Shown: positions 3,552 to 31,611 of the stretch, piece after piece | Numbering within the stretch: position 1 is the first letter of the stretch | How the letters are laid out: every line of letters starts with the position of its first letter | Assembly (NCBI GenBank): GCA_013911135.1 | Contig: JACERO010000013.1 | Location: 1-60,321, forward strand | Reading direction: 5' to 3' | Length of the DNA stretch: 60,321 nt | Origin: Candidatus Nitrosopumilus sp. | Lineage (GTDB): Archaea; Thermoproteota; Nitrososphaeria; Nitrososphaerales; Nitrosopumilaceae | Position numbers and translations under genes: made by a program | The notes under the pieces: model-generated | The model's database searches: none | What the model saw: only the letters and a program-made list of their open reading frames with translations | What the model was told of the DNA's origin: nothing

Positions 3552-5619
3552 TACATTTACAGACTCTGCATTGTCAGATAGAGTAAAAGAATTTCTTATT
3601 AGATTTAAAAATAAATCTGGTAACTACACCTATGTAGAAGCAATCGATGAGATGATGCCTAAAAATGCAAAATACATTGTAGTTGATTACAATGATTTGG
3701 TTGTAGAGCCAGAAATTGAGATCTTATTTACTACAAATCCTGATAGAGTCTTTGATGCGTTTTCTAGAGCAATCAAAGAAGCACTACAAACAAGATTTCC
3801 AGATTATGCTGAAAAAATAAAAGATGAAGTTCGTGTAAGACTGATTAACTTCCCACTTCAGCGAAGTCTCAGACAAATCAATGCTGAAACTATTGGAACA
3901 ATTACAAGCGTTTCAGGAATGGTAGTTAGAGCATCAGAAGTAAAACCCCTTGCAAAAGAACTAGTCTTTGTTTGTCCTGATGATCACCCTACTAAGGTAA
4001 TTCAGCTTAAAGGAATGGATGTTAAAATTCCTGTAGTATGTGATAACCCATCTTGTAAACACAGGGATTTTGAGATAAAACCAGAAGCAAGCAAGTTTAT
4101 TGATTTTCAACTTCTTAGATTACAAGAACTTCCTGAGGACTTACCTCCAGGACAACTTCCTCACTATATTGATGTCACAATTAGGCAGGATTTAGTCGAT
4201 AATGCAAGGCCTGGAGACAGAATTATTCTTACAGGTATAGTCAGAATCGAACAAGAATCAGTTGCAGGTGTTCAGAGAGGTCATAGTGGATTATACCGAT
4301 TAAGAATTGAAGGAAATAACATTGAATTTTTGGGTGGACATGGTTCTAAAATGTCTCGTAAAATAGCCAAAGACGAAGTTTCACCTGAAGAAGAAGAAAT
4401 GATCAAAGCATTAAGTAAAAGTCCTGATGTATATCAAAAACTAATTGATTCATTTGCTCCTCACATTCAAGGACATTCAGTAATCAAAGAAGCTATTATG
4501 TTACTTATCGTCGGTGCTAATCAAAAAATATTAGGTGATGGAAGCAAGATTAGAGGTGACATTAATGTATTTCTAGTTGGAGATCCTGGTACTGCAAAAA
4601 GTGAGATGCTAAAGTTTTGTACAAGAATTGCACCACGAGGTTTGTATACTTCTGGTAGAGGTTCAACTGCTGCAGGACTTACAGCTGCTATAGTTAAAGA
4701 CAAAACTGGAATCATGATGCTTGAAGCAGGTGCAGTAGTACTTGGTGATCAAGGTCTTGTGTGTATAGACGAATTTGACAAGATGAAACCAGAAGATAGA
4801 AGTGCTTTACACGAAGTCATGGAACAACAGTCAGCCAGTATTGCAAAAGGTGGTATTGTAGCTACACTAAATGCTAGAACATCAATTTTAGCTGCTGCAA
4901 ACCCAATGTATGGAAAATATGATCCATTCAAAAATATTACAGAAAATGTAAACTTGCCAATTCCATTGCTTACAAGATTTGACTTGATTTTTGTTGTAAG
5001 AGATATTCCAAGTAAAGAAAAAGATGAAAAAATTGCTAGACATATTATAAAACTGCATACTCCACAAGGAACAGACAAACGTTCTGTAATTGATGTTGAT
5101 TTACTAACAAAATATCTCTCATATGCAAAACGTGGTACTCCTAAAATGACCAAAGATGCTGAAGAAAAAATACTCGAATATTACCTACAGATGAGAAATG
5201 TAGAATCCGAAGAGATGATTACAGTTACGCCAAGACAACTAGAGGGAATTATCAGACTCTCTACTGCAAGAGCAAGATTACTCATGAAAAGCGAGGTAGA
5301 ACTAGAAGATGCTGAACGAGCAATCTTCTTGCTTCAGAATATGCTTGAGGATGCGGGAGTGGATGTCAATACTGGAAAAGTAGATCTTGGAGTATTACAA
5401 GGAAAACCAAGAAGTGAGGTTTCAAAGATGCAATTATTCATGGATGTTCTCAGAGGCCTTGAGGGTGATAACAAGGTGCCAGTAGAAGAAAAGATATTTG
5501 TCAGAGAACTAGAAAAGAGTGAAAAATTCACTGAAGACGAGGCAAGAAACTATATCCGAAGAATGCTTAGAGAAGCATCTATTTATGAATCAAGACCCGG
5601 TCACTATAACCGAGTATGA
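3532..5619 (+). CDS. mcm: MCM replicative DNA helicase
   Basis: This is the hexameric 3'-5' helicase that unwinds DNA at the fork. The N-terminal domain holds a zinc site (Cys148, then Cys170, Cys175 and His177 as candidate ligands). The AAA+ core has Walker A GDPGTAKS near residue 350, Walker B CIDEFDK near 411, and the arginine-finger LLTRFD near 480. A winged-helix tail follows. The length of 695 residues is normal and no intein is present. It overlaps the GINS gene upstream by 20 bp and the Hel308 gene downstream by 4 bp (ATGA), so the three are translationally coupled. Confidence 0.98.
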   Translation: MSKTQTSTFTDSALSDRVKEFLIRFKNKSGNYTYVEAIDEMMPKNAKYIVVDYNDLVVEPEIEILFTTNPDRVFDAFSRAIKEALQTRFPDYAEKIKDEVRVRLINFPLQRSLRQINAETIGTITSVSGMVVRASEVKPLAKELVFVCPDDHPTKVIQLKGMDVKIPVVCDNPSCKHRDFEIKPEASKFIDFQLLRLQELPEDLPPGQLPHYIDVTIRQDLVDNARPGDRIILTGIVRIEQESVAGVQRGHSGLYRLRIEGNNIEFLGGHGSKMSRKIAKDEVSPEEEEMIKALSKSPDVYQKLIDSFAPHIQGHSVIKEAIMLLIVGANQKILGDGSKIRGDINVFLVGDPGTAKSEMLKFCTRIAPRGLYTSGRGSTAAGLTAAIVKDKTGIMMLEAGAVVLGDQGLVCIDEFDKMKPEDRSALHEVMEQQSASIAKGGIVATLNARTSILAAANPMYGKYDPFKNITENVNLPIPLLTRFDLIFVVRDIPSKEKDEKIARHIIKLHTPQGTDKRSVIDVDLLTKYLSYAKRGTPKMTKDAEEKILEYYLQMRNVESEEMITVTPRQLEGIIRLSTARARLLMKSEVELEDAERAIFLLQNMLEDAGVDVNTGKVDLGVLQGKPRSEVSKMQLFMDVLRGLEGDNKVPVEEKIFVRELEKSEKFTEDEARNYIRRMLREASIYESRPGHYNRV

Positions 5620-7742
5620 AAATAGAGAAACTAGATCTTCCCGATTCTGCAATTAAATTTTTAAAATCACAAGGTTTTGAAAAATTATATCCCCCACAAG
5701 CTGATAGTGTAGATTCTGGGTTATTAGATGGGAAAAGCGTTCTAGTATCTGCTCCTACTGCAAGTGGAAAGACTTTGATTGCCATACTTGCAATGATTAG
5801 TTATCTTTCAAAGAATAATGGCAAGGTGATTTATCTTAGTCCTTTACGTGCATTAGCTGCTGAAAAATTCTCAGAGTTTAAAAAATTAGAAAAAGTTGCT
5901 CTAGGAAATAAAATCAAAGTCAGTATATCTACTGGAGACTATGAAAATATTGAAAAACATTTGGAGAAAAGTAATGTGTTAATTTTAACAAATGAAAAAA
6001 TGGATTCAATTATTAGACATGGTGCTGAATGGGTTGAAGAAATTGGACTAGTAATTACTGATGAAGTTCATTTGATTGGAGATGAAAATCGAGGTCCAAC
6101 ACTTGAGATGATTCTTACACAACTAAAATTATTAAATACAAAACCTCAGATTGTAGGTCTTAGTGCTACTATTTCAAATTCTGATGAGATTGCAGATTGG
6201 CTTGATTGCGAGCTAGTGCAAAATGACTGGAGACCTGTGCCACTAACCGAAGGAGTATGTGATGCAGGCGAAGTTACCATGAATGATGGTAAGACCTTTT
6301 CAGTTGAGCGTAGCATACGTGGAACTCCGATTGATTTAGGCGTACAATCAGTAAAAGAAGGTGGTCAATCTCTAGTATTTGCAGAGACTAGAAACCGTTC
6401 AAAATCTCTTGCAACAAAAGCAGCAGATGCTATCTCTCAGATTTTAGAAAAAAAAGATTTGAAGGAATTAGAAAAAACCTCAAAAAAAATTCTGTCTGAA
6501 AACGAACATACAGAATTAATAAAGACATTGGCAATTCTTGTAAAAAAAGGAGTTGCGTTTCATCATGCAGGACTGAATCAAAATTGCAGAGCAACAATAG
6601 AAACAGAATTTCGTAAAGGAACTATCAAGTTACTCTCATCTACACCAACTTTAGCTGCAGGAGTTAATCTTCCAGCAAGAAGAGTTGTAATTTCAAATGT
6701 TAATAGATACAATGCAAAAGTTGGGGCAAATAGGCCGATTAGTATCTTAGAATACAAACAACTCTGTGGCAGAGCTGGAAGACCACAATATGATGATTAT
6801 GGAGAAGCAATAATTGTTGGAAATGGAAATACTGAAGACTTGATTGACTATTACGTTAATGGAGAACCAGAACCAATAATTTCAAAGATTACTGATGACA
6901 AATCTTTACGTACTCACATACTTAGTGTTATAGTTACACATCTTGGAATTAAAAAAGATGAGATCTTGGAATTTTTCTTGCAAACATTAGGGGGATTACA
7001 ATCAAGAAAACCTACAATAAAATTTGCAATTGATATTTCCCTGCGTTTTTTGTCCAGCGAATATCTGATAATCAAAAAAGGTGAAAGATATGCAGCTACT
7101 GAATTTGGAAAAAAGACATCAATGTTGTATATTGATCCTTTAACTGCAACATACTTTAGAGATGCTATTGAAAACGTATCCCAAGAAAGAAAACATACAT
7201 TTGGATTCTTACATTTGATCTCAAACTGCGAAGAATTTTTCCCTAAATTTTCACTTCGACAAAAGGATTATGAATCTGCCAGTCTTTTGATAGAAAACAA
7301 TTCTTCAGAACTGCTTGAACCAATTTCAGAATATGATTGCTCAAGAAGCCTTTTGGCCTTACAGGCATGGATTAGCGAATCTTCAGAATTATCCCTATCT
7401 GATAATCTTGGAATAGAGTCAGGAGACATGCATAGGATGACTGAGACTGCAAATTGGCTTTCATATTGCCTTAGGGAGATTTCTAAGCATGTGGAGAGGG
7501 CAGATTTGCTTGAGGAACTCGGTAATCTAAGAAAAAGAATCGTTTATGGAATTAGAGATGAATTACTTGAACTAGTTAAAATCAAAGGAATTGGAAGGGT
7601 TAGAGCCAGAACTCTCTACAAACATGGAATTAAGAATTTAGATGATTTGGCAAAGATTCCAGTGAATAAATTAGCCGAAATAGATAAAATTGGGTCAACC
7701 CTTGCAGATAACATAAAGTCTGAATTACGAAAGGTTAGATAA
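5616..7742 (+). CDS. hel308: ATP-dependent DNA helicase Hel308/Hjm
   Basis: This superfamily-2 3'-5' helicase acts on stalled and branched replication forks. Motif I APTASGKT is at about residues 46-53, motif II DEVH near 149, motif III LSAT near 181, and motif VI in the QLCGRAGRPQ stretch. A helix-hairpin-helix region in the last 60 residues (GIGRVRARTLY, then KIGSTLADNI) matches the Hel308 C-terminal domain. At 708 residues it is full length. It is coupled to mcm by an ATGA overlap, placing fork repair and fork unwinding in one operon. Confidence 0.95.
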   Translation: MKIEKLDLPDSAIKFLKSQGFEKLYPPQADSVDSGLLDGKSVLVSAPTASGKTLIAILAMISYLSKNNGKVIYLSPLRALAAEKFSEFKKLEKVALGNKIKVSISTGDYENIEKHLEKSNVLILTNEKMDSIIRHGAEWVEEIGLVITDEVHLIGDENRGPTLEMILTQLKLLNTKPQIVGLSATISNSDEIADWLDCELVQNDWRPVPLTEGVCDAGEVTMNDGKTFSVERSIRGTPIDLGVQSVKEGGQSLVFAETRNRSKSLATKAADAISQILEKKDLKELEKTSKKILSENEHTELIKTLAILVKKGVAFHHAGLNQNCRATIETEFRKGTIKLLSSTPTLAAGVNLPARRVVISNVNRYNAKVGANRPISILEYKQLCGRAGRPQYDDYGEAIIVGNGNTEDLIDYYVNGEPEPIISKITDDKSLRTHILSVIVTHLGIKKDEILEFFLQTLGGLQSRKPTIKFAIDISLRFLSSEYLIIKKGERYAATEFGKKTSMLYIDPLTATYFRDAIENVSQERKHTFGFLHLISNCEEFFPKFSLRQKDYESASLLIENNSSELLEPISEYDCSRSLLALQAWISESSELSLSDNLGIESGDMHRMTETANWLSYCLREISKHVERADLLEELGNLRKRIVYGIRDELLELVKIKGIGRVRARTLYKHGIKNLDDLAKIPVNKLAEIDKIGSTLADNIKSELRKVR

Positions 7743-9439: not shown

Positions 9440-9709
9440 TCACAAATGCCATGGGTTTGCCTTTGTAATAATTTTTTCAGGCAATTCATCTTTGTTATTT
9501 TTTAGAAAGTCTAATTCTTGTTTTTTGTCTCTTAATTCATCAGGAAGCATTATTGGAATCTCTTCAATAATTGGATAAAATCTAGAACATTTTGAGCAGA
9601 ATAATGCTCCTTCAGAGACAATATTGTCTTTTTCTTTAATTTCAAATAATTCCAAAGGATGATTCTTGTCTATCGGGCATGCCAAAATATCCATCATTGT
9701 TTTGTTCAT
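9440..9709 (-). CDS. Trm112 family protein
   Basis: This 89-residue zinc-binding protein has the Trm112 signature: the N-terminal LACPIDKNHPLEL segment and a second CSKC pair in the strand leading to IIEEIPIMLP. Trm112 is the activator subunit of several SAM-dependent methyltransferases that act on tRNA, rRNA and release factors. It overlaps the Gfo/Idh gene by 4 bp and is followed 4 bp later by the acyltransferase start. Its presence inside a sugar-enzyme operon is odd and may only reflect co-transcription. Confidence 0.85.
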   Translation of the reverse strand: MNKTMMDILACPIDKNHPLELFEIKEKDNIVSEGALFCSKCSRFYPIIEEIPIMLPDELRDKKQELDFLKNNKDELPEKIITKANPWHL

Positions 9710-10641
9710 TTTAGATCTAGATAGATTAGTATTCCTTTTTGACTAGATAAAAGTGCAGCTTCTGCAATCTTTGTAACATTGACTGCTTCTTGTGATTTTA
9801 CAACTTGTTCATTTTTACCTTCAATTGCTCCAAGAAAACTTTGAATTTCTAATAATAATGGTTCTTGTTTTTCGTTTTGTACGGTTTCTGATTCATCACT
9901 TTTCTCCACAATAATTTCTTGAGTGATAAAATCTGATGAAATTATAGCATCTGTACATACAGCATTAAATTTTCTAACTTTTTTTGGTGTAATCCAGTTT
10001 GATGAAATAATTGCAACTTTGTCATCTTTGTATCCTAGCATGATACTTGCAAAATCTTCATGTTCATGTTTGATTTTACCTGCTCTTGCAAATACCACAT
10101 GTGGCATATCATCAAACAACCAATTTGCAGTATCAATATCATGTACTGAAGTATCATAAATAATTCCAACATCTTTGATATGAAGAGGCATTCTATTTTC
10201 ACGGTGAAATTCTAACATTACTAAATCTCCAAATTTCTTTTCTTTGACAAATTTTTTTACAACATCTACTGCAGGATTAAATCTCTCAATATATCCACAT
10301 GTAAGAACTACTTTATTTTTCTCTGCAAGTTTGGCAAGTTTTTCACCATCTTCAGATTTGTACGTCATTGGCTTTTCCACAAAAACATGTTTTTTTGCCT
10401 CTAACAATTTTGTTGCAATTTCTGTGTGAGTTGATGTAGGTGTTACTACAAATGCTCCATCAAACTCTTCTGAACTTAGTAGATCATCTAATGATTCATA
10501 ATGATTTACAGAATATTTTTCTCCGTATTCTTTACTTTTTTGAGAATCTGCATCACAAACAGCTACAAGTACATCTAATTGAGATAAAATCCTAGTATGA
10601 TTTTTGCCCCATCCACCGGTTCCTATTTGAACAATTTTCAT
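9706..10641 (-). CDS. Gfo/Idh/MocA family NAD(P)-dependent sugar dehydrogenase
   Basis: The N-terminal Rossmann fold begins IVQIGTGGWGKNH (GxGxxG near residues 7-12), followed by the family's catalytic VFVEKPMT motif near 90-97. The C-terminal alpha/beta domain carries FHRENRMP and the DVGIIYDTSVHDID segment with a likely catalytic His. The 311-residue protein is most like nucleotide-sugar 3-dehydrogenases (WbpB type). It abuts ilvE upstream, overlaps the Trm112 gene, and shares its operon with a hexapeptide acyltransferase. The exact substrate is unknown. Confidence 0.85.
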   Translation of the reverse strand: MKIVQIGTGGWGKNHTRILSQLDVLVAVCDADSQKSKEYGEKYSVNHYESLDDLLSSEEFDGAFVVTPTSTHTEIATKLLEAKKHVFVEKPMTYKSEDGEKLAKLAEKNKVVLTCGYIERFNPAVDVVKKFVKEKKFGDLVMLEFHRENRMPLHIKDVGIIYDTSVHDIDTANWLFDDMPHVVFARAGKIKHEHEDFASIMLGYKDDKVAIISSNWITPKKVRKFNAVCTDAIISSDFITQEIIVEKSDESETVQNEKQEPLLLEIQSFLGAIEGKNEQVVKSQEAVNVTKIAEAALLSSQKGILIYLDLK

Positions 10642-12247: not shown

Positions 12248-13093
12248 CTATCCGTATGATTCGTATTTGAGTTCAAAACTTCCATCTTCACGTTTGTCAT
12301 GTTCTGTGACAAAACCTTTTGGTTTTAAGAAATCCATTACGCCATCTATTGTTCCCTGCCAACCACAAACATAGAATATGGTATTGTCTTTGGTGATTTT
12401 ATCACCAATTAGTTCTTCTAGTGGTGACATTCCATTTTCTCCAGGTCTTAGGAATGTTTCAACTCTTCCAATTTGACCTCCCCATGATCTGTTAAACCAT
12501 TCTTGAGGTCTACTGATTGCAGCTCTGTACTTAAAGTTCCACTTGTCCTTGCCTTTTGCAATACTATCATCTTCAAGCGAAGTTAGCAAATCTTTGTAAC
12601 TTAATTCATCAACGTAACTGGCACCTTGTAAAACTATGATTTCTCGCTTATCTCCAGTATCATGAAAGTGCTGTGCAAAACTAAGAAATGGTGCAAGACC
12701 TGTACCTCCACCTATACAAATAATTCTTCTGTTATCTTTTCCCCCGTTTGGAAGTTCTTCATTAATGTCTAGTGCTTTACCTGTAGGTTTTAACCAAAGA
12801 ATCTCATCTCCTTCTTTTAGATTAAATAATTGTGTAGTTAATCTACCTGGGAGTGGTTTTCTAACCCATCTAATTACAAGCTCAATGTACTCTTTATTTT
12901 CTGGATGAGATGTAATTGAATATGCTCGTCTAACAATTTTTCCACCTTCTACAGGATTTGGTAATCCCAGTGTGATAAATTGACCAGCTCTAAAATCTGG
13001 AACTGGACCATCTTTTGGAACTAATCTAATAATTACAAGATCTTCTTTTAATAATTGAACATATGTGACAGTTGCTTTGTTATCTACCACCAT
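12248..13093 (-). CDS. FAD/NAD(P)-binding ferredoxin reductase-like protein, copy 1
   Basis: This is a ferredoxin-NAD(P)+ reductase-type flavoprotein of 281 residues. The FAD-binding RRAYSITS motif is near residues 55-62 and the NAD(P)-binding GGGTGLAPFL near 127-136. The C-terminal region contains VCGWQGTIDG, the CG motif that closes on the nicotinamide. A close paralogue of almost equal length lies at 23501-24343. It probably exchanges electrons between ferredoxin and NAD(P)H in the cytoplasm. Electron donor and cofactor preference cannot be read from sequence. Confidence 0.88.
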   Translation of the reverse strand: MVVDNKATVTYVQLLKEDLVIIRLVPKDGPVPDFRAGQFITLGLPNPVEGGKIVRRAYSITSHPENKEYIELVIRWVRKPLPGRLTTQLFNLKEGDEILWLKPTGKALDINEELPNGGKDNRRIICIGGGTGLAPFLSFAQHFHDTGDKREIIVLQGASYVDELSYKDLLTSLEDDSIAKGKDKWNFKYRAAISRPQEWFNRSWGGQIGRVETFLRPGENGMSPLEELIGDKITKDNTIFYVCGWQGTIDGVMDFLKPKGFVTEHDKREDGSFELKYESYG

Positions 13094-21275: not shown

Positions 21276-21417
21276 CCATAATTTTTACAAAATTTGGTTA
21301 GCGGAAAATCGTTTTACAACCGATCAGAATGATATTTGTATATACTAATTCAAAAAGAAATGATTAATGATTTTTCATACAAGAATCTTAAAATTCAGGC
21401 AACTTCAGTAAATTTTG

Positions 21418-22125
21418 ATGTCTGAGGACAAAAAAGATCCTGAAGTAAAAGCAAAACCTACAGAAGATTCAGCATCAGATAAACCATCTACCGATAAAAC
21501 TGCAAAAACTAAAGCTGAAAAAGAAGTAAAATCTGCAGTCGATGCAGCAAGTAAAGCAGATGCAGCAGCAAAAGCAGCTGAAAAAGCAGAAATTGCAGCA
21601 AACAAAGCTATTGCAAAAGCAGCCGCTGCAAAAGAAAAAGCTGAAGCAGCAGCAGAAGCAGAATACAAGGCAATTGCTGATGAAGTAAAAGCAGATGCAG
21701 CAAAAGGTCTTGATTACACCTTCAAGAGACAAGGTGAAGAAATCTTTAGACGAGAGATGGGCGAACCAGAATTTTGGTTAGATAAAAAAGATCGTTTCCC
21801 ACGACCAATTCTTTCAGCAGAAGAACAAGAATCTATAACAAGAAAAGCTGAGTTGTTCCAAGATACAACTCCTGCCTATACTCCTGAACATGTTCTTAGT
21901 CCAGAGTTTGGAGGTGTTTCAAATTATGAACACGCAGTTGATGAATTTTTAGAAGAATCAAAACAAAGACTTGAAAAATTAAAAAATGATCCAGAATCTA
22001 CTAAAAAACAAATCAAAAATGCTCAAAATGATATTATTTATTTAGAATCATTACATGAAAATTTCTATATAGGAATGAATATTTTCCGAACTGCTAAAGG
22101 TGGACGAGACAAGCTAAAATCTTAA
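21418..22125 (+). CDS. Ala/Lys-rich acidic protein of unknown function
   Basis: I do not recognise the family. The 235-residue protein has a low-complexity N-terminal half (about 20-100) rich in Ala, Lys and Glu (KAEIAANKAIAKAAAAKEKA) that should form a long helix or coiled coil. The C-terminal half is more ordinary and contains FRREMGEPEFWLDKKDRFP and a helical KQRLEKLKNDPE segment. No signal peptide or membrane helix is seen. The ATG at 21418 follows a TTG at 21415. It lies 10 bp before the GluTR-like gene and is probably co-transcribed with it. Confidence 0.75.
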   Translation: MSEDKKDPEVKAKPTEDSASDKPSTDKTAKTKAEKEVKSAVDAASKADAAAKAAEKAEIAANKAIAKAAAAKEKAEAAAEAEYKAIADEVKADAAKGLDYTFKRQGEEIFRREMGEPEFWLDKKDRFPRPILSAEEQESITRKAELFQDTTPAYTPEHVLSPEFGGVSNYEHAVDEFLEESKQRLEKLKNDPESTKKQIKNAQNDIIYLESLHENFYIGMNIFRTAKGGRDKLKS

Positions 22126-22135
22126 TGGTGATGAT

Positions 22136-23212
22136 ATGAATCAGGTACACTTTGATGTTATGAATGCAAGAGTCACTTTCAAAAATGTTCCTCTACATGC
22201 ATTAGCAAAGTATACTTTCAAAGATGTACTTGCAGCATCTGAAGAATTCAAAAAAATTTCTGGTGTTGATGAATGCATCATTATTCAAACAGCAAGTAGA
22301 GTTGAAATCTTTTTAGTAAGCAATGTTGAAACTTCTGATTCTCCTGATGCGCGAAGAGCTGAAGGAAAAACTCTTGTGTTAAATCAAATCAAAGATACTT
22401 GGATACCATTATCTTCATTAGAACAGATTGACATTGATCATTTTGATCAAACTCTTGAAGTCTACAAAGGTGATGATGTGTATCTTCATCTATTACGTTT
22501 AGTATCTGGATTAGATTCTCCTGTTGTGGGAAAACAAAAAGTGTTTGATGAAATAGTGTTATCATTAGCCAAATCAAAGAGTGCAGGTGTATCTGGTAAA
22601 ATTCTTAATAAATTATTTGAAAGCGTAATTAGACTAGCCACAAGAATGCGAGATACCACTGGAATTTCAAAAGATGTACTTTCTCTTGGTGATATTGCAG
22701 TAAAACTAGTAGATGAAAAAACAGGACTTGATGCCAAGAAAAAAGTATTACTTATTGGTACTGGTAAACCAGCCGCTATGGTTGCCAAAACTTTGAAGAC
22801 CAAAGGCATCAACTTTGATGTAACAAGTAGAGAAATTGAACGTGCAACTGGATTTACAACACTTTTGGGAGGAAACCCTGTTGAGTTTAATGAAGTTTTA
22901 TCTGGTTTTGATAAATATGATGTAATCTTTGTTGCAACAACATGTGATTATTTCTTAATCACATATGATAGAATCCATTTGGTGATGGAAGAAAAGAAAA
23001 AAGGTACACTAATTTTAGATTTGTCAGATCCTAGAACTGTTGATGAAGGAATTACTAAACTTCCAGGAATCAAATTATTGTTTAGAGATCAAGTTTATGA
23101 AATTTATGAAGAAAGTGTTAAAACCAGAATCGGAATTGTTCCTGCAGTTGAAAAAATTATTGCAAAAGAAGTTCCTATTTTATCTGTAACAATGAAAAGA
23201 TTAGATGCTTAA
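22136..23212 (+). CDS. glutamyl-tRNA reductase homologue lacking the catalytic Cys
   Basis: The 358-residue protein follows the HemA fold order: an N-terminal catalytic-like domain, the HLLRLVSGLDS helix near 118-128, an NADPH Rossmann domain with LIGTGKPAAMVA near 202-213, and a short C-terminal dimerisation part. The active-site TCNR motif reads TASR (residues 52-55), so the thioester-forming Cys is Ala53, and the usual GE of the G-E-x-Q-I motif is GK (Lys133). It therefore probably does not reduce glutamyl-tRNA by the known mechanism. It may be a pseudoenzyme or have a new activity, perhaps with the Ala/Lys-rich protein encoded just upstream. Confidence 0.8.
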   Translation: MNQVHFDVMNARVTFKNVPLHALAKYTFKDVLAASEEFKKISGVDECIIIQTASRVEIFLVSNVETSDSPDARRAEGKTLVLNQIKDTWIPLSSLEQIDIDHFDQTLEVYKGDDVYLHLLRLVSGLDSPVVGKQKVFDEIVLSLAKSKSAGVSGKILNKLFESVIRLATRMRDTTGISKDVLSLGDIAVKLVDEKTGLDAKKKVLLIGTGKPAAMVAKTLKTKGINFDVTSREIERATGFTTLLGGNPVEFNEVLSGFDKYDVIFVATTCDYFLITYDRIHLVMEEKKKGTLILDLSDPRTVDEGITKLPGIKLLFRDQVYEIYEESVKTRIGIVPAVEKIIAKEVPILSVTMKRLDA

Positions 23213-23218
23213 TTTTTT

Positions 23219-23386
23219 CTATACGCCTTGTTTTCTTAAGAGAAATTGCATTACGGCTTCTTTAGAATAGTCTATTCCGTGTTCTTCATCAGTATGTTTT
23301 CTAAAATTCTCGATTACTTCTTCCATTTCTCCATCTACTATAAAATCACACTCAAATCCATAATCTCCACACTTGAGTTTTGCCAT
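23219..23386 (-). CDS. DUF1059 family small protein
   Basis: A 55-residue frame starts at the ATG at 23386 and reads MAKLKCGDYGFECDFIVDGE, with MEEVIENFRKHTDEEHGIDY following. The C-x6-C spacing near the start and the downstream HxxxEHG match DUF1059 proteins, small soluble proteins of unknown function. It converges on the GluTR-like gene. Confidence 0.75.
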   Translation of the reverse strand: MAKLKCGDYGFECDFIVDGEMEEVIENFRKHTDEEHGIDYSKEAVMQFLLRKQGV

Positions 23387-23500
23387 ACTTTAGAAAAAAT
23401 ACTACAATATAAAAATCCACAGGTATGCCATATCTGCTAAAAACTGATTTTTTAAATTCTACAAACAAAACTTTATAATTATTTTTCTGAAAAATCGCTT

Positions 23501-24343
23501 TTATCCGTAAGATTCAAACTTTATTCCAAAGCTTCCATCTGGATTTTTCTCATGTTCAGTAACAAAACCTCTTGAACCAAGAGACTCAATTACTCCATCA
23601 ATTGTACCTTGATACCCACAAATGTACACTATTGTGTTCTCTGGTGTTATTTCTTCTCCTACCATCTCATCTACTGGTGATAATCCCGTTTTTTTATCAG
23701 GCTTGAAAAATGATTCTACTCGGCCTACATGACCAGACCAAGATCTATTGTAGAATTCTTTTGGTCTACTGATGGCTGTTCTATATTTAAAATTCCATTG
23801 ATCTCTTCCTCTTCTTACACTTTCATTTTCTAAATCTGTCAAAAGTCGTTTGTAACTTAATTCATCAATATAACTTGCTCCGTGCAAAATAATCACTTCT
23901 CTTTTGTCATTAGTATCATGGAAATGTTTTGCAAATGCAATAAATGGTGCTAATCCTGTTCCACCACCAACACAAATAATTCTCCTATTGTCTTTTTCTC
24001 CATTAGGTAATCTTTCACTAATTTGTAATGCAGCACCTGTAGGATCTCCTAGAGCTACTTCATCACCAACACCTAGATAAAATAATTCAGTTGTTACACG
24101 ACCAGGAAGTGGTTTTCTTACCCATCTAATTACAAATTCAAAATAATCTCTATTTTCTGCATGGGATGCAATTGAATATGCTCTTCTAACTATCTTTTTT
24201 TCTGCTGGTATTGGAAGACCAATTGTTAAAAATTGACCAGTTCTGTATTTTGGCATTCCGTTTTCTGGAACTAATCGTATAATTACAAGATCTTCTTTTA
24301 TCATTTCCATATAAGTGACCTTTGCCATAGTATCAGTTACCAT
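23501..24343 (-). CDS. FAD/NAD(P)-binding ferredoxin reductase-like protein, copy 2
   Basis: The 280-residue paralogue of the 12.2-kb flavoprotein has the same landmarks: RRAYSIAS for FAD, GGGTGLAPFI for NAD(P), and VYICGYQGTIDG near the C-terminus. The two share long stretches (IIRLVP, FVIRWVRKPLPGR against LVIRWVRKPLPGR). Two such genes within 11 kb suggest separate redox partners or growth conditions. Neither carries its own Fe-S domain, so a separate ferredoxin is needed. Confidence 0.88.
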   Translation of the reverse strand: MVTDTMAKVTYMEMIKEDLVIIRLVPENGMPKYRTGQFLTIGLPIPAEKKIVRRAYSIASHAENRDYFEFVIRWVRKPLPGRVTTELFYLGVGDEVALGDPTGAALQISERLPNGEKDNRRIICVGGGTGLAPFIAFAKHFHDTNDKREVIILHGASYIDELSYKRLLTDLENESVRRGRDQWNFKYRTAISRPKEFYNRSWSGHVGRVESFFKPDKKTGLSPVDEMVGEEITPENTIVYICGYQGTIDGVIESLGSRGFVTEHEKNPDGSFGIKFESYG

Positions 24344-24476: not shown

Positions 24477-25276
24477 TCATTGATTGATCTGAGACATTAT
24501 TTCATCTAGAATTTTCTGATTTGCAGCGGCAATAAAAGAAACTCGTGTATCATAACTTAGATCAGCATCAAGTGGATTCAAATCTGCATCTAAGAGTAAT
24601 CCACCTGCTTCTTTAACAATTAGATATCCTGCAGCAATATCTTGAATTCTAATTTTATCTCTAAAATCAATAAAAATATCCATTAATCCTCTTGCAAATA
24701 ATGCCATTTCTAGGGCATTTGCACCAAAATGTCTTGTGTGATTATGGTTTTCAAATATTGGATGTAATCGTTTCATTAACTCTACTGTTGCTCCAGATAC
24801 GTTAATGCCAACTATTTTGTATATTGGATCGCTGTTATGCACTTTGATTTACTCCTCATTGAAAAATGAGCCTTTATTTTTTGAAACCCAATACATTTCA
24901 CCATTTACTAGATTTGTAATAACTGCATCTGTAACTGAACTAAGTTTATTCTCAGTTGCAAATGCCAATGAACATAGAAAAAAGGAACACCACGTACTGC
25001 ATTAGCTGAACCATCTATTGCATCTATAATGATGTATCCTTTTGGATTATCTGATAACTCAACTCTTCCACATTCTTCACCTAAAACAATACATTCAAAA
25101 TTAATTTCTTTGAGATAATCTAAAACTGTTTTTTCAGCAACAATGTCTATGTTTCGTGAAATATCTCCTCCTGCCCCTCTACCAAAGTCTCCTGCAGCTT
25201 GTTCAGTACCAGCAAGATCTTTTACATTTTTATAAATTCTATTTGATGCTTCACGAAGAATTTCTATTATTTCCAT
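24477..25276 (-). pseudogene. inositol monophosphatase family gene, broken
   Basis: The N-terminal part (25276-24908) contains VLGEECGRVE and DAIDGSANAVRG, the metal-binding motifs of the IMPase/FBPase superfamily. The C-terminal part (24842-24477) has IQDIAAGYLIVKEAGG, the second signature. Between them the reading continues in another frame (CSLAFATENKLSSV and on to YWVSKNKGSFF), so one base is missing near 24973-24984. A TAA then interrupts that frame at 24849-24851 before it rejoins the C-terminal part. One frameshift plus one nonsense codon points to real inactivation. The intact enzyme would have hydrolysed a sugar or inositol phosphate. Confidence 0.8.
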
Positions 25277-28050: not shown

Positions 28051-29598
28051 ATGCATTCTGAAAAGATTGAAGAGTATACTAAAAAGAATAACACCGCATT
28101 ACAGGGAGGGGGTCAAGATCGGATTAAGGCTCAACATGATAAGGGCAAATTAACTGCTCGCGAAAGAATCAATCTTTTACTTGATGAAGGCACTTTTACT
28201 GAAATGGATCCATTAACCACACACCACTATCATGAATATGATATGCAGAAGAAGAAATTCTTTACAGATGGTGTAATTTGTGGTTATGGAACAGTAAATA
28301 GCAGACAAATCTTTGTCTTTGCTTATGATTTTACTGTACTTGGTGGAACACTAAGTAGGATGGGAGCTAAAAAAATTACAAAACTTACGGAACATGCACT
28401 CAAAACTGGATGCCCAATTATTGGAATAATGGATTCTGGTGGTGCTAGAATCCAAGAAGGAATTATGAGTCTTGATGGATTTGCAGATATTTTCTATTAC
28501 AATCAATTAGCTTCTGGAGTAATTCCACAAATTACCGCAAGTATTGGTCCTTCAGCAGGTGGTGCTGTATATTCTCCTGCAATGACTGACTTTGTAATTA
28601 TGGTTAACAAGATAGGAACTATGTTTGTTACAGGACCTGATGTAGTCAAAACTGTATTGGGTGAAGAAATTTCATTTGAAGATCTTGGTGGTGCAATGAC
28701 ACATGGTACAAAAAGTGGAGTTGCACATTTTGTTGCACAAAATGAGTACGAATGCATGGATTACGTCAAAAAATTACTCTCATATCTTCCACAAAATAAT
28801 ACTGAAGAAGCACCTAAAACTACAACTGATGATGATCCAAATAGATTAGATCATAATCTTATTAATATAATTCCAGAAAATCCTTTGCAACCCTATGACA
28901 TGAAAGATATCATCAACTCTATTGTTGATAATCATGAATTCTTTGAAGTGCATGAATTGTTTGCACCAAACATTGTAGTTGGTTATGGTAGAATGAATGG
29001 CAGAGTTGTTGGATTTATTGCAAACAATCCTATGTATCTTGCAGGTGCACTTGATATTGATTCATCAAACAAGGCAGCACGTTTTATTAGATTCTGTGAT
29101 TCATTTAACATACCACTTATCACTTTAGTTGATACTCCTGGTTACATGCCTGGTTCTAATCAAGAACACAATGGAATCATTAGACATGGAAGTAAACTAC
29201 TCTTTGCATTTTGTGAAGCTACTGTTCCAAGAATTACTTTAGTTATTGGCAAAGCATATGGTGGTGCATACATTGCAATGGGAAGTAAAAATCTTAGAAC
29301 TGACATTAACTATGCATGGCCTACTGCAAGATGTGCAGTTTTAGGTGGAGAAGCAGCTGTAAAAATCATGTATAGAAAAGAACTTGCAAAAGCTGAAGAC
29401 TCTGAATCTCTTAAAAAAGAATTAATTGATGAATTTGCAGAAAAATTTGAAAATCCTTACGTTGCTGCATCTCATGGAACCGTTGATAATGTAATTGATC
29501 CTGCTGAAACAAGACCTATGTTAATTAAAGCACTAGAAATGCTTGAAAACAAAAGAGAAAAACAACTACTTAGAAAACACGGAAACATCAATCTGTGA
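28051..29598 (+). CDS. acetyl-/propionyl-CoA carboxylase, carboxyltransferase subunit
   Basis: The 515-residue crotonase-fold carboxyltransferase transfers CO2 from carboxybiotin to acetyl-CoA or propionyl-CoA. It has the KLTARERINLLLDEGTF start typical of PccB, two carboxyltransferase halves, the oxyanion-loop motifs GPSAGGAVYSPA (near 167-178) and GKAYGGAYIAMG, and VDTPGYMPG. In thaumarchaea one bifunctional enzyme performs both carboxylations of the 3HP/4HB cycle. It leads an operon with the biotin carboxylase and biotin carrier genes. Confidence 0.95.
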   Translation: MHSEKIEEYTKKNNTALQGGGQDRIKAQHDKGKLTARERINLLLDEGTFTEMDPLTTHHYHEYDMQKKKFFTDGVICGYGTVNSRQIFVFAYDFTVLGGTLSRMGAKKITKLTEHALKTGCPIIGIMDSGGARIQEGIMSLDGFADIFYYNQLASGVIPQITASIGPSAGGAVYSPAMTDFVIMVNKIGTMFVTGPDVVKTVLGEEISFEDLGGAMTHGTKSGVAHFVAQNEYECMDYVKKLLSYLPQNNTEEAPKTTTDDDPNRLDHNLINIIPENPLQPYDMKDIINSIVDNHEFFEVHELFAPNIVVGYGRMNGRVVGFIANNPMYLAGALDIDSSNKAARFIRFCDSFNIPLITLVDTPGYMPGSNQEHNGIIRHGSKLLFAFCEATVPRITLVIGKAYGGAYIAMGSKNLRTDINYAWPTARCAVLGGEAAVKIMYRKELAKAEDSESLKKELIDEFAEKFENPYVAASHGTVDNVIDPAETRPMLIKALEMLENKREKQLLRKHGNINL

Positions 29599-29604
29599 TC
29601 TAAA

Positions 29605-31092
29605 ATGATTGAAAAAGTGCTTATCGCAAACAGAGGAGAAATTGCTTTACGTGTAATTAGGACATGTAAGGCACTTGGAATCAAAACAGTTGCAGTTTAT
29701 TCTGATGAAGACTACAATTCTTTACACGTAAAACAGGCTACTGAAGCGTATTACATTGGAGAGGCAACTCCTACAAAATCATATCTTAATCAAGAAAAAA
29801 TTCTAGAAGTTATGCTATCATCTGGTACAGATGCTGTTCATCCAGGTTATGGTTTTCTTTCTGAAAATGATGATTTTGCACGATTGTGTGAAAAAAATAA
29901 AATTAATTTCATTGGCCCAACTGCTGATTCAATGGATCTTTGTGGTGACAAAATGAAATGCAAAGATGCAATGTTAAAAGCTAAAGTCCCAACTGTTCCT
30001 GGAAGTCCTGGTCTAGTAAAAGATGCTGCTGATGCAGAAAAAATTGCAAATGAAATTGGTTATCCTGTAATGTTAAAGTCAGTTTATGGCGGTGGTGGTC
30101 GTGGAATTAGAATAGTGACTAATGATAAAGAATTGCGTGATGGTTATGAATCTGTTACAGGTGAATCAATGGCGTCAGTAGGCAAATCAGCTATTCTTGT
30201 AGAAAAATTTCTTGAAAAGACACGACACATTGAATTTCAAATGGCAAGAGACACTCATGGTAATACTGTTCATATCTTTGAGAGAGAATGTTCAATTCAA
30301 AGACGAAATCAAAAATTAATTGAACAAACCCCTTCACCAACTGTTGATGAAGAAACAAGAGCTCGTATAGGTGAATTAGTTTGTAAAGCTGCTGATGCAG
30401 TTGGTTATACTAACTTGGGAACTGCTGAATTTCTAAGAGCTGATAATGGAGAATTCTACTTTATTGAAATCAATGCTAGATTACAAGTAGAACATCCAAT
30501 TACTGAACTTGTATCTGGATTGGATTTGGTCAAACTGCAAATCGATATTGCAAATGGCGAAGCAATCCCATTCAAACAAAGTGATCTCAAAATGAATGGT
30601 TATGCAATAGAATGCAGAATCAATGCAGAAGATACATTCTTGGAATTTGCTCCTTCTACTGGACCTATTCCAGATGTAACAATTCCTGCAGGACCAAGTG
30701 TTCGATGTGATACTTATCTATATCCTGGCTGCGCAGTTTCTCCATTTTATGACTCACTTATGGCAAAACTCTGTACATGGGGCCAAACATTTGAAGAATC
30801 TAGAACTAGAATGCTTTCAGCGTTAAATGATTTTTACATTCAAGGAGTAGAAACTTCAATTCCTCTCTACAAAACAATTCTAAATTCAGATGAGTACAAA
30901 AATGGAGAACTATCCACTGATTTTCTTAAGCGTCATAATATGATTGATAGATTGACTAAAGATCTTAAGAAAGAAAAAGAAGAGAAAAGCGAAGCAGCTT
31001 TGGCTGCTGCAATAATTCATTCTGAATACTTTAAGAGCCGTATACAAAATCATGCTAATAATAATTCTAATTGGAAAAATAAATTGGATTGA
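29605..31092 (+). CDS. accC: acetyl-/propionyl-CoA carboxylase, biotin carboxylase subunit
   Basis: This ATP-grasp enzyme carboxylates biotin on the carrier protein with bicarbonate and ATP. The 495-residue sequence begins IEKVLIANRGEIALRVIRT, has the Gly-rich ATP loop GGGGRGIR near 163-170, the catalytic EINARLQVEHPITE near 292-305, and RINAEDT. A charged C-terminal extension (KDLKKEKEEKSEAALAAA) goes beyond the usual 450 residues. The ATG is 7 bp after the previous stop. Confidence 0.96.
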   Translation: MIEKVLIANRGEIALRVIRTCKALGIKTVAVYSDEDYNSLHVKQATEAYYIGEATPTKSYLNQEKILEVMLSSGTDAVHPGYGFLSENDDFARLCEKNKINFIGPTADSMDLCGDKMKCKDAMLKAKVPTVPGSPGLVKDAADAEKIANEIGYPVMLKSVYGGGGRGIRIVTNDKELRDGYESVTGESMASVGKSAILVEKFLEKTRHIEFQMARDTHGNTVHIFERECSIQRRNQKLIEQTPSPTVDEETRARIGELVCKAADAVGYTNLGTAEFLRADNGEFYFIEINARLQVEHPITELVSGLDLVKLQIDIANGEAIPFKQSDLKMNGYAIECRINAEDTFLEFAPSTGPIPDVTIPAGPSVRCDTYLYPGCAVSPFYDSLMAKLCTWGQTFEESRTRMLSALNDFYIQGVETSIPLYKTILNSDEYKNGELSTDFLKRHNMIDRLTKDLKKEKEEKSEAALAAAIIHSEYFKSRIQNHANNNSNWKNKLD

Positions 31093-31098
31093 TGAATT

Positions 31099-31611
31099 AT
31101 GGATTATAAAATACCAGATATTGAAAAATCATTTGAAGGAAAGATAACAGAAAATCTCGGTAATAATGAATATGTAATTAAAATTAATGATAACGAGCAT
31201 AAATTAAAAATTATAAAGATGAGTTCAAAAGGAATTGAATTTATTTTAGATCAAAAATATCACCGAGCAAAATATCTTGAACAATCTACAAATGAAATGA
31301 ATCTTGTAATTGATAATGTCCCAATCACTCTAAACATCAATACTCATTTTGATGAAATTGTTTACAAAAACACCGGCGGAGGTAGTACTGGTGATTCACA
31401 ATTAGCTTTGAAAAGCCAAATTCCAGGAAAGGTTGTATCAATTGCAGTTACTGATGGTGATTCTGTAAAGAAAGGTGATGTTGTTTGTACTTTAGAGTCT
31501 ATGAAAATGCAAGTAGCTGTCAAAGCACACAAAGATGGTGTTATAAAATCAATTAAAGTAAAGAAAACTGGAACCGTTGCAAAAGGCGACGTAATTGCAG
31601 AAATAGAATAA
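31099..31611 (+). CDS. biotin carboxyl carrier protein of acyl-CoA carboxylase
   Basis: The biotinyl domain fills the C-terminal 80 residues, with LESMKMQV and biotin-acceptor Lys136. A Gly/Ser linker (NTGGGSTGDSQ) separates it from an N-terminal beta-rich part (about 1-90) that probably docks to the partner subunits. The length of 170 residues matches the alpha-subunit C-terminus of fused enzymes. It is the third gene of the operon, 7 bp after accC. Confidence 0.95.
   Translation: MDYKIPDIEKSFEGKITENLGNNEYVIKINDNEHKLKIIKMSSKGIEFILDQKYHRAKYLEQSTNEMNLVIDNVPITLNINTHFDEIVYKNTGGGSTGDSQLALKSQIPGKVVSIAVTDGDSVKKGDVVCTLESMKMQVAVKAHKDGVIKSIKVKKTGTVAKGDVIAEIE

Follow-up and report, generated by a model that had tools for sequence, protein, structure and literature searches.

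A glutamyl-tRNA reductase paralogue without the thioester cysteine and its conserved gene partners in Nitrosopumilaceae

The mechanism of glutamyl-tRNA reductase (GluTR, HemA) involves a cysteine thioester and a hydride from NADPH, and the enzyme forms a V-shaped dimer through its C-terminal domain (PMC6399207, PMC7242693). The plant proteins GBP and FLU are regulators of GluTR and not its paralogues (PMC6597238, PMC4726326). An inventory of archaeal tetrapyrrole genes from 2010 lists a single hemA in N. maritimus (Nmar_0510) and notes that additional copies lying outside the cluster were not included (PMC3004389). Within the open-licence literature, we found no description of a Nitrosopumilus GluTR paralogue or of a GluTR pseudoenzyme, and no paper there matched the locus tags that gene order led us to guess for the surroundings of the N. 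maritimus copy.

The protein described here, which we call pseudo-GluTR, resembles HemA/GtrR (TIGR01035; 1gpj, 4n7r, 5che, 5yjl) in its whole-length homology over the N-terminal and NADPH domains and in its predicted fold, but it lacks the thioester Cys and the GExQ Glu and Gln, carries a PDxR insertion and, in the copy studied most closely, has no dimerisation domain. A parallel may be drawn with GBP and FLU, in which non-catalytic proteins are likewise linked to a GluTR-fold protein; unlike pseudo-GluTR, however, the plant regulators are, by their literature descriptions, proteins unrelated to GluTR.

Sequence, domains and predicted structure of pseudo-GluTR

Pseudo-GluTR is encoded in a stretch of 60,321 nucleotides of a Candidatus Nitrosopumilus sp. 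genome (the window; Table 1). It comprises an N-terminal catalytic-type domain (residues ~13–175), an NADP(H) Rossmann domain (~195–321) and the start of the spinal helix, up to residue 356. Pfam GlutR_N (88 bits) and Shikimate_DH (PF01488, 70 bits) both match above their cut-offs, whereas the Pfam search for GlutR_dimer (PF00745) gave no match in the window copy, compared with 68 bits for the canonical HemA of the same genome. Against the HemA equivalog model TIGR01035 pseudo-GluTR scores 182.2 bits, below the cut-off of 209.55, and the canonical HemA 337.6. The two proteins are 44% identical over the whole length of pseudo-GluTR.

Table 1 Features of the window in the order of their coordinates.
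Feature	Coordinates	Strand	Remarks
FNR1, the other reductase copy, paralogue from which FNR2 split	12248..13093	-	65% identical to FNR2; outside the module
P0002, Ala/Lys-rich partner protein	21418..22125	+	ATG at 21418 (TTG at 21415 also possible); 10 bp upstream of pseudo-GluTR
Cys-less glutamyl-tRNA reductase paralogue (pseudo-GluTR)	22136..23212	+	358 aa, ATG start
TASR (residues 52–55) at the TCNR position, thioester Cys replaced by Ala	22289..22300	+	Sequence comparison
PDxR motif (residues 70–73) within the paralogue-specific insertion	22343..22354	+	Without counterpart in any canonical GluTR
GKQKV (residues 132–136) at the GExQI position, Glu and Gln gone	22529..22543	+	Sequence comparison
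Small DUF1059 protein	23219..23389	-	Recurrent neighbour of the pair in either orientation; 20/26 loci
FNR2, FAD/NAD(P)-binding reductase paralogue	23501..24343	-	Convergent with pseudo-GluTR; in the clade of pseudo-GluTR-linked reductases
Acyl-CoA carboxylase genes (carboxyltransferase, biotin carboxylase, biotin carrier)	28051..31611	+	Ancestral neighbours of the P0002 C-terminal domain

Where canonical GluTRs read QTCNRIE the window copy reads QTASRVE, and SMVLGEEQILGQI is replaced by SPVVGKQKVFDEI. The original prediction, that TCNR had become TASR and the Glu of GExQI Lys, with the His of HLLRLVSGLDS and the NADPH loop retained, is borne out on every point, and the nearby Gln of the GExQI motif is gone as well. 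The active-site His of the canonical HLFRVASGLDS motif is thus present in the window copy, as is the GxG loop of the Rossmann domain, by which NADPH binding is predicted. Because pseudo-GluTR lacks the residue that defines GluTR chemistry, we do not class it as HemA; having lost its catalytic residues while evolving under purifying selection, in a genome that keeps an intact paralogue, it has the marks of a pseudoenzyme.

The source genome (1.71 Mb, 98.6% complete) contains two GlutR_N matches. The second is a canonical HemA of 423 aa on contig 27 with both TCNR and GEEQI, so the search for a TCNR-type hemA that the original prediction had proposed was successful, and the genome does hold a second hemA. 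This gene has neighbours that we take, by sequence recognition, to be precorrin-2-dehydrogenase-like and porphobilinogen-synthase-like (hemB-like). HemL was detected above its cut-off on contig 42, adjoining a gene that is presumably hemC, again by sequence recognition. The same genome encodes a second HemL-like aminotransferase (L207; G000 contig 43, 7846-9087), which at 323 bits falls below the HemL cut-off of 527.

AlphaFold2 modelled pseudo-GluTR with a pLDDT of 83 and a pTM of 0.74, the insertion (residues 66–78) being of low confidence. Among PDB entries its fold is closest to that of Methanopyrus kandleri GluTR (1gpj), followed by Arabidopsis GluTR–GBP complexes, one of them with NADPH. 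The TM-scores of these matches are only near 0.5, likely owing to differing domain angles.

Residue conservation, origin and selection

We compared 51 paralogues with 42 canonical GluTRs, residue by residue, and checked 80 further named loci for the Cys. All 42 canonical GluTRs have the TCNR Cys, whereas it occurs in none of the 51 paralogues and in none of the 80 further loci. Since more than 100 related copies agree, chance or a sequencing error as the cause of the missing Cys was rejected. Its position is occupied by A, S, Q, H, T or G, and the following Asn is replaced by Ser, Thr or Phe. None of the same 51 sequences retains the GExQ Glu, whose place is usually taken by Lys or Trp, or the GExQ Gln, usually replaced by Glu or Ser; Gln120, a further Gln of the canonical helix, is mostly lost.

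Other parts of the old pocket persist, namely R55, E57, S128 and often H118. All 51 paralogues retain both the Arg and Glu of TxxRxE and the Rossmann GxG, and 47/51 retain the Ser. The old active-site His is H in 32 and N in 16 of the 51, with about seven changes between the two on the tree. In the 'SR' loop for NADPH, the Arg that follows Ser is conserved in part of the set (R 27, K 10, M 9; n = 51). By analogy with related dehydrogenases this Arg is probably the 2'-phosphate contact, and, as only 27/51 paralogues keep it, the preference for NADPH may be weakened in some species. A further set of positions, PDxR, H102, D104, Q105, Y110, K148, D271 and K344, is new in the paralogues and invariant or nearly so across all 51.

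The paralogues have a single origin. In a maximum-likelihood tree of 65 proteins, all 28 sampled paralogues form one clade (support 100/100) nested among the canonical GluTRs of Nitrosopumilaceae, a position by which a duplication older than the family was rejected. The original prediction had suggested a paralogue and had proposed a tree to see whether TASR-type proteins form a separate clade; the tree shows such a clade and, together with the TCNR-bearing hemA on another contig, supports the paralogy. The sister of the clade is L064, the canonical GluTR of genome G052, which is the canonical sequence closest to all paralogues (100/99), and G052 also carries one of the two deepest-branching paralogues. 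The position of L064 hints at a duplication in or near the G052 lineage.

At least two GluTR matches were found in 50/50 sampled genomes of the window's genus, and a second match occurs in many, not all, other genera of the family, several of which have no paralogue. The closest matches to pseudo-GluTR come mostly from Nitrosopumilus, Nitrosarchaeum and Nitrosopelagicus, and only single GluTRs were seen among the genomes sampled outside Nitrosopumilaceae. Three genomes from another family, G175, G176 and G181, seemed to have double GluTRs, but these matches proved to be two pieces of one gene and were rejected as paralogues. The canonical GluTR of family f2 (L095–L097; G181, G176, G175) gives a split match, probably reflecting an insertion of ~20–30 aa near residue 270.

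Pairwise dN/dS values are ~0.06–0.20 for the paralogues and ~0.07–0.10 for canonical hemA, and the paralogues are therefore under purifying selection, somewhat relaxed. They exist in short and long forms, of which the long ones, e.g. L043, retain the dimerisation domain (32.6 bits). Three short/long changes are placed on the tree, indicating that the domain was lost about three times.

Partner genes of the paralogue

The Ala/Lys-rich reading frame that the original prediction had placed 10 bp upstream ends at 22125, as predicted, and encodes P0002. It consists of an Ala/Lys-rich helical N-terminus, a conserved middle (FxRREMxEPEFxLxKxDRF) and a C-terminal domain ending GMN(V/I)FRTAKGGR. P0002 has no Pfam or NCBIfam match above cut-off, and its predicted structure is of low confidence (pLDDT 65, pTM 0.28). 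In 26/26 loci from various genera a P0002 homologue immediately precedes pseudo-GluTR on the same strand, and it is also directly upstream in all 79 named loci whose contig is long enough. The partnership is kept where the remaining neighbours differ (L033, L035, L040, L043, L044); in G046 the gene order is the same as in the window.

The last 70–110 aa of P0002 correspond to an older protein, which exists as a stand-alone gene (~70–190 aa) in genomes without the paralogue, including other families of the order; the domain is therefore independent of the paralogue. Within genus g17, both forms often occur in genomes that have the paralogue, and only the stand-alone form in those that lack it. 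Among ammonia-oxidising archaea the stand-alone form (GMNxFRxAxGGR ending) nearly always immediately precedes the gene for the carboxyltransferase of acyl-CoA carboxylase (L183–L205), and in several genera the P0002–pseudo-GluTR pair occupies this ancestral carboxylase-side place (L036, L037, L041, L042, L047). The stand-alone relatives have no Pfam match above cut-off; judged from gene position, the 70–190 aa protein is a candidate small partner of acyl-CoA carboxylase.

At 25/26 loci the paralogue has a gene for an FAD/NAD(P) reductase no more than ~0.9 kb away, in varying orientation. The copy in the window, FNR2, is like ferredoxin-NADP reductase-like flavoproteins in its domains (PF00970 and PF00175), but differs from this group in general in being a lineage-specific duplicate that follows pseudo-GluTR. 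Without correction for kinship, one strong FNR copy was counted in each of 14 family genomes that lack the paralogue, and at least two in 15 of the 18 that have it; a contrast within genus g17 agrees with this pattern. In the three exceptions among the 18, the sole FNR copy adjoins the paralogue and falls outside the clade of linked reductases. That clade (97/96) includes the copy of G076, where FNR2 is away from the pair but beside a DUF1059 gene. The copy counts and the reductase tree thus indicate a duplication of a part of the module that travels as a group, and FNR2 is co-inherited with pseudo-GluTR, a linkage that may in part be due to both genes having been inherited in a single block.

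Three further observations concern the surroundings. In G009 the module adjoins hemD, cobA and hemC. At L043 (genus g17) two related proteins of ~317 aa with ferredoxin-type domains (5351–6304 and 9609–10565) flank the module, and similar genes occur near L040 and L044. An inositol-monophosphatase-like gene of the window (24477–25276, minus strand) is present as two reading frames (121 and 122 aa), its relatives having one of ~265–270 aa, so that it is either broken or an assembly error.

Possible roles of the module

On the computational evidence, we consider it probable that pseudo-GluTR is a fixed pseudoenzyme, an NADP(H)-binding, non-catalytic subunit that works with P0002 in a redox-linked module with FNR2. 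A duplication of hemA inside Nitrosopumilaceae gave rise to a protein that, because its thioester Cys and GExQ Glu and Gln are gone, should no longer make glutamate-1-semialdehyde; this loss of GluTR activity is read from the sequence, and the job would fall to the cell's canonical HemA together with HemL. The protein appears to have retained its GluTR fold and, for the most part, the NADP(H)-binding domain, and to have been rebuilt around a new conserved surface (the PDxR insertion, H102/D104/Q105, K148, D271 and K344). Pseudo-GluTR most likely binds NADP(H), and it may act as subunit, sensor or scaffold in a physical complex with P0002. FNR2 would supply or take electrons, the DUF1059 protein often being part of the module, and the output would possibly be NADPH or electron supply for tetrapyrrole synthesis or acyl-CoA carboxylase. 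As for that output, the gene neighbourhood suggests acyl-CoA carboxylase in several genera and tetrapyrrole genes in a single one (L035); each of these associations might be a relic of the ancestral location. A more specific version, which we put forward tentatively and regard as somewhat improbable, is a four-protein redox module (P0002, pseudo-GluTR, FNR2 and often DUF1059) in which the dead GluTR is an NADP(H) sensor that couples reductant status to carbon fixation, through acyl-CoA carboxylase, or to tetrapyrrole synthesis.

The descent of pseudo-GluTR from HemA, the dimerisation domain still recognisable in long forms and the hem genes beside the module in G009 would all suit a regulator of tetrapyrrole synthesis that pairs with HemA or HemL, or titrates Glu-tRNA, and so tunes 5-aminolevulinate production; GluTR is also a usual control point (PMC6597238, PMC4726326). 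Yet the dimerisation domain was repeatedly lost, the window copy included, tetrapyrrole genes adjoin the module in one lineage only, the GExQ residues are gone, and the conserved partners P0002 and FNR2 have no known tetrapyrrole role, all of which makes such a regulator unlikely. We judge it quite unlikely that pseudo-GluTR has become a new enzyme that depends on NAD(P)H and turns over another substrate in a remodelled pocket, its electrons or cofactor being tied to FNR2. The retained R55, E57, S128 and, often, H118 would fit some other catalysis, and the universal Rossmann GxG, the newly invariant H102, D104, Q105 and D271 and the neighbouring reductase agree with it, but no conserved nucleophile has taken the place of the Cys, and the repeated exchange of the old active-site His for Asn argues against a strict catalytic role for that residue.

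That catalytic residues and the dimerisation domain have gone, and that several genera of the family have no paralogue, could also be read as signs of a decaying duplicate heading for loss. Open reading frames in the copies listed and the presence of at least two GluTR matches in every sampled genome of the window's genus stand against this very improbable course, and the purifying selection and the residues invariant across the clade practically exclude it. The neofunctionalisation suggested by the original prediction is well supported by that selection, the new invariant residues and the conserved gene partnership; the regulatory role that it offered as the alternative is possible.

Marine ammonia-oxidising archaea are among the most abundant nitrifiers of the ocean, and much of their genome has no assigned function. 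Annotation can label a GluTR copy without the Cys as glutamyl-tRNA reductase and so mislead reconstructions of the pathway. The genes for pseudo-GluTR, P0002, FNR2 and the DUF1059 protein constitute a concrete module that some members of one family possess and their relatives lack, so that its role can be approached by comparison and biochemistry. A second GluTR copy that is kept by selection beside the normal one has most likely taken on a new job.
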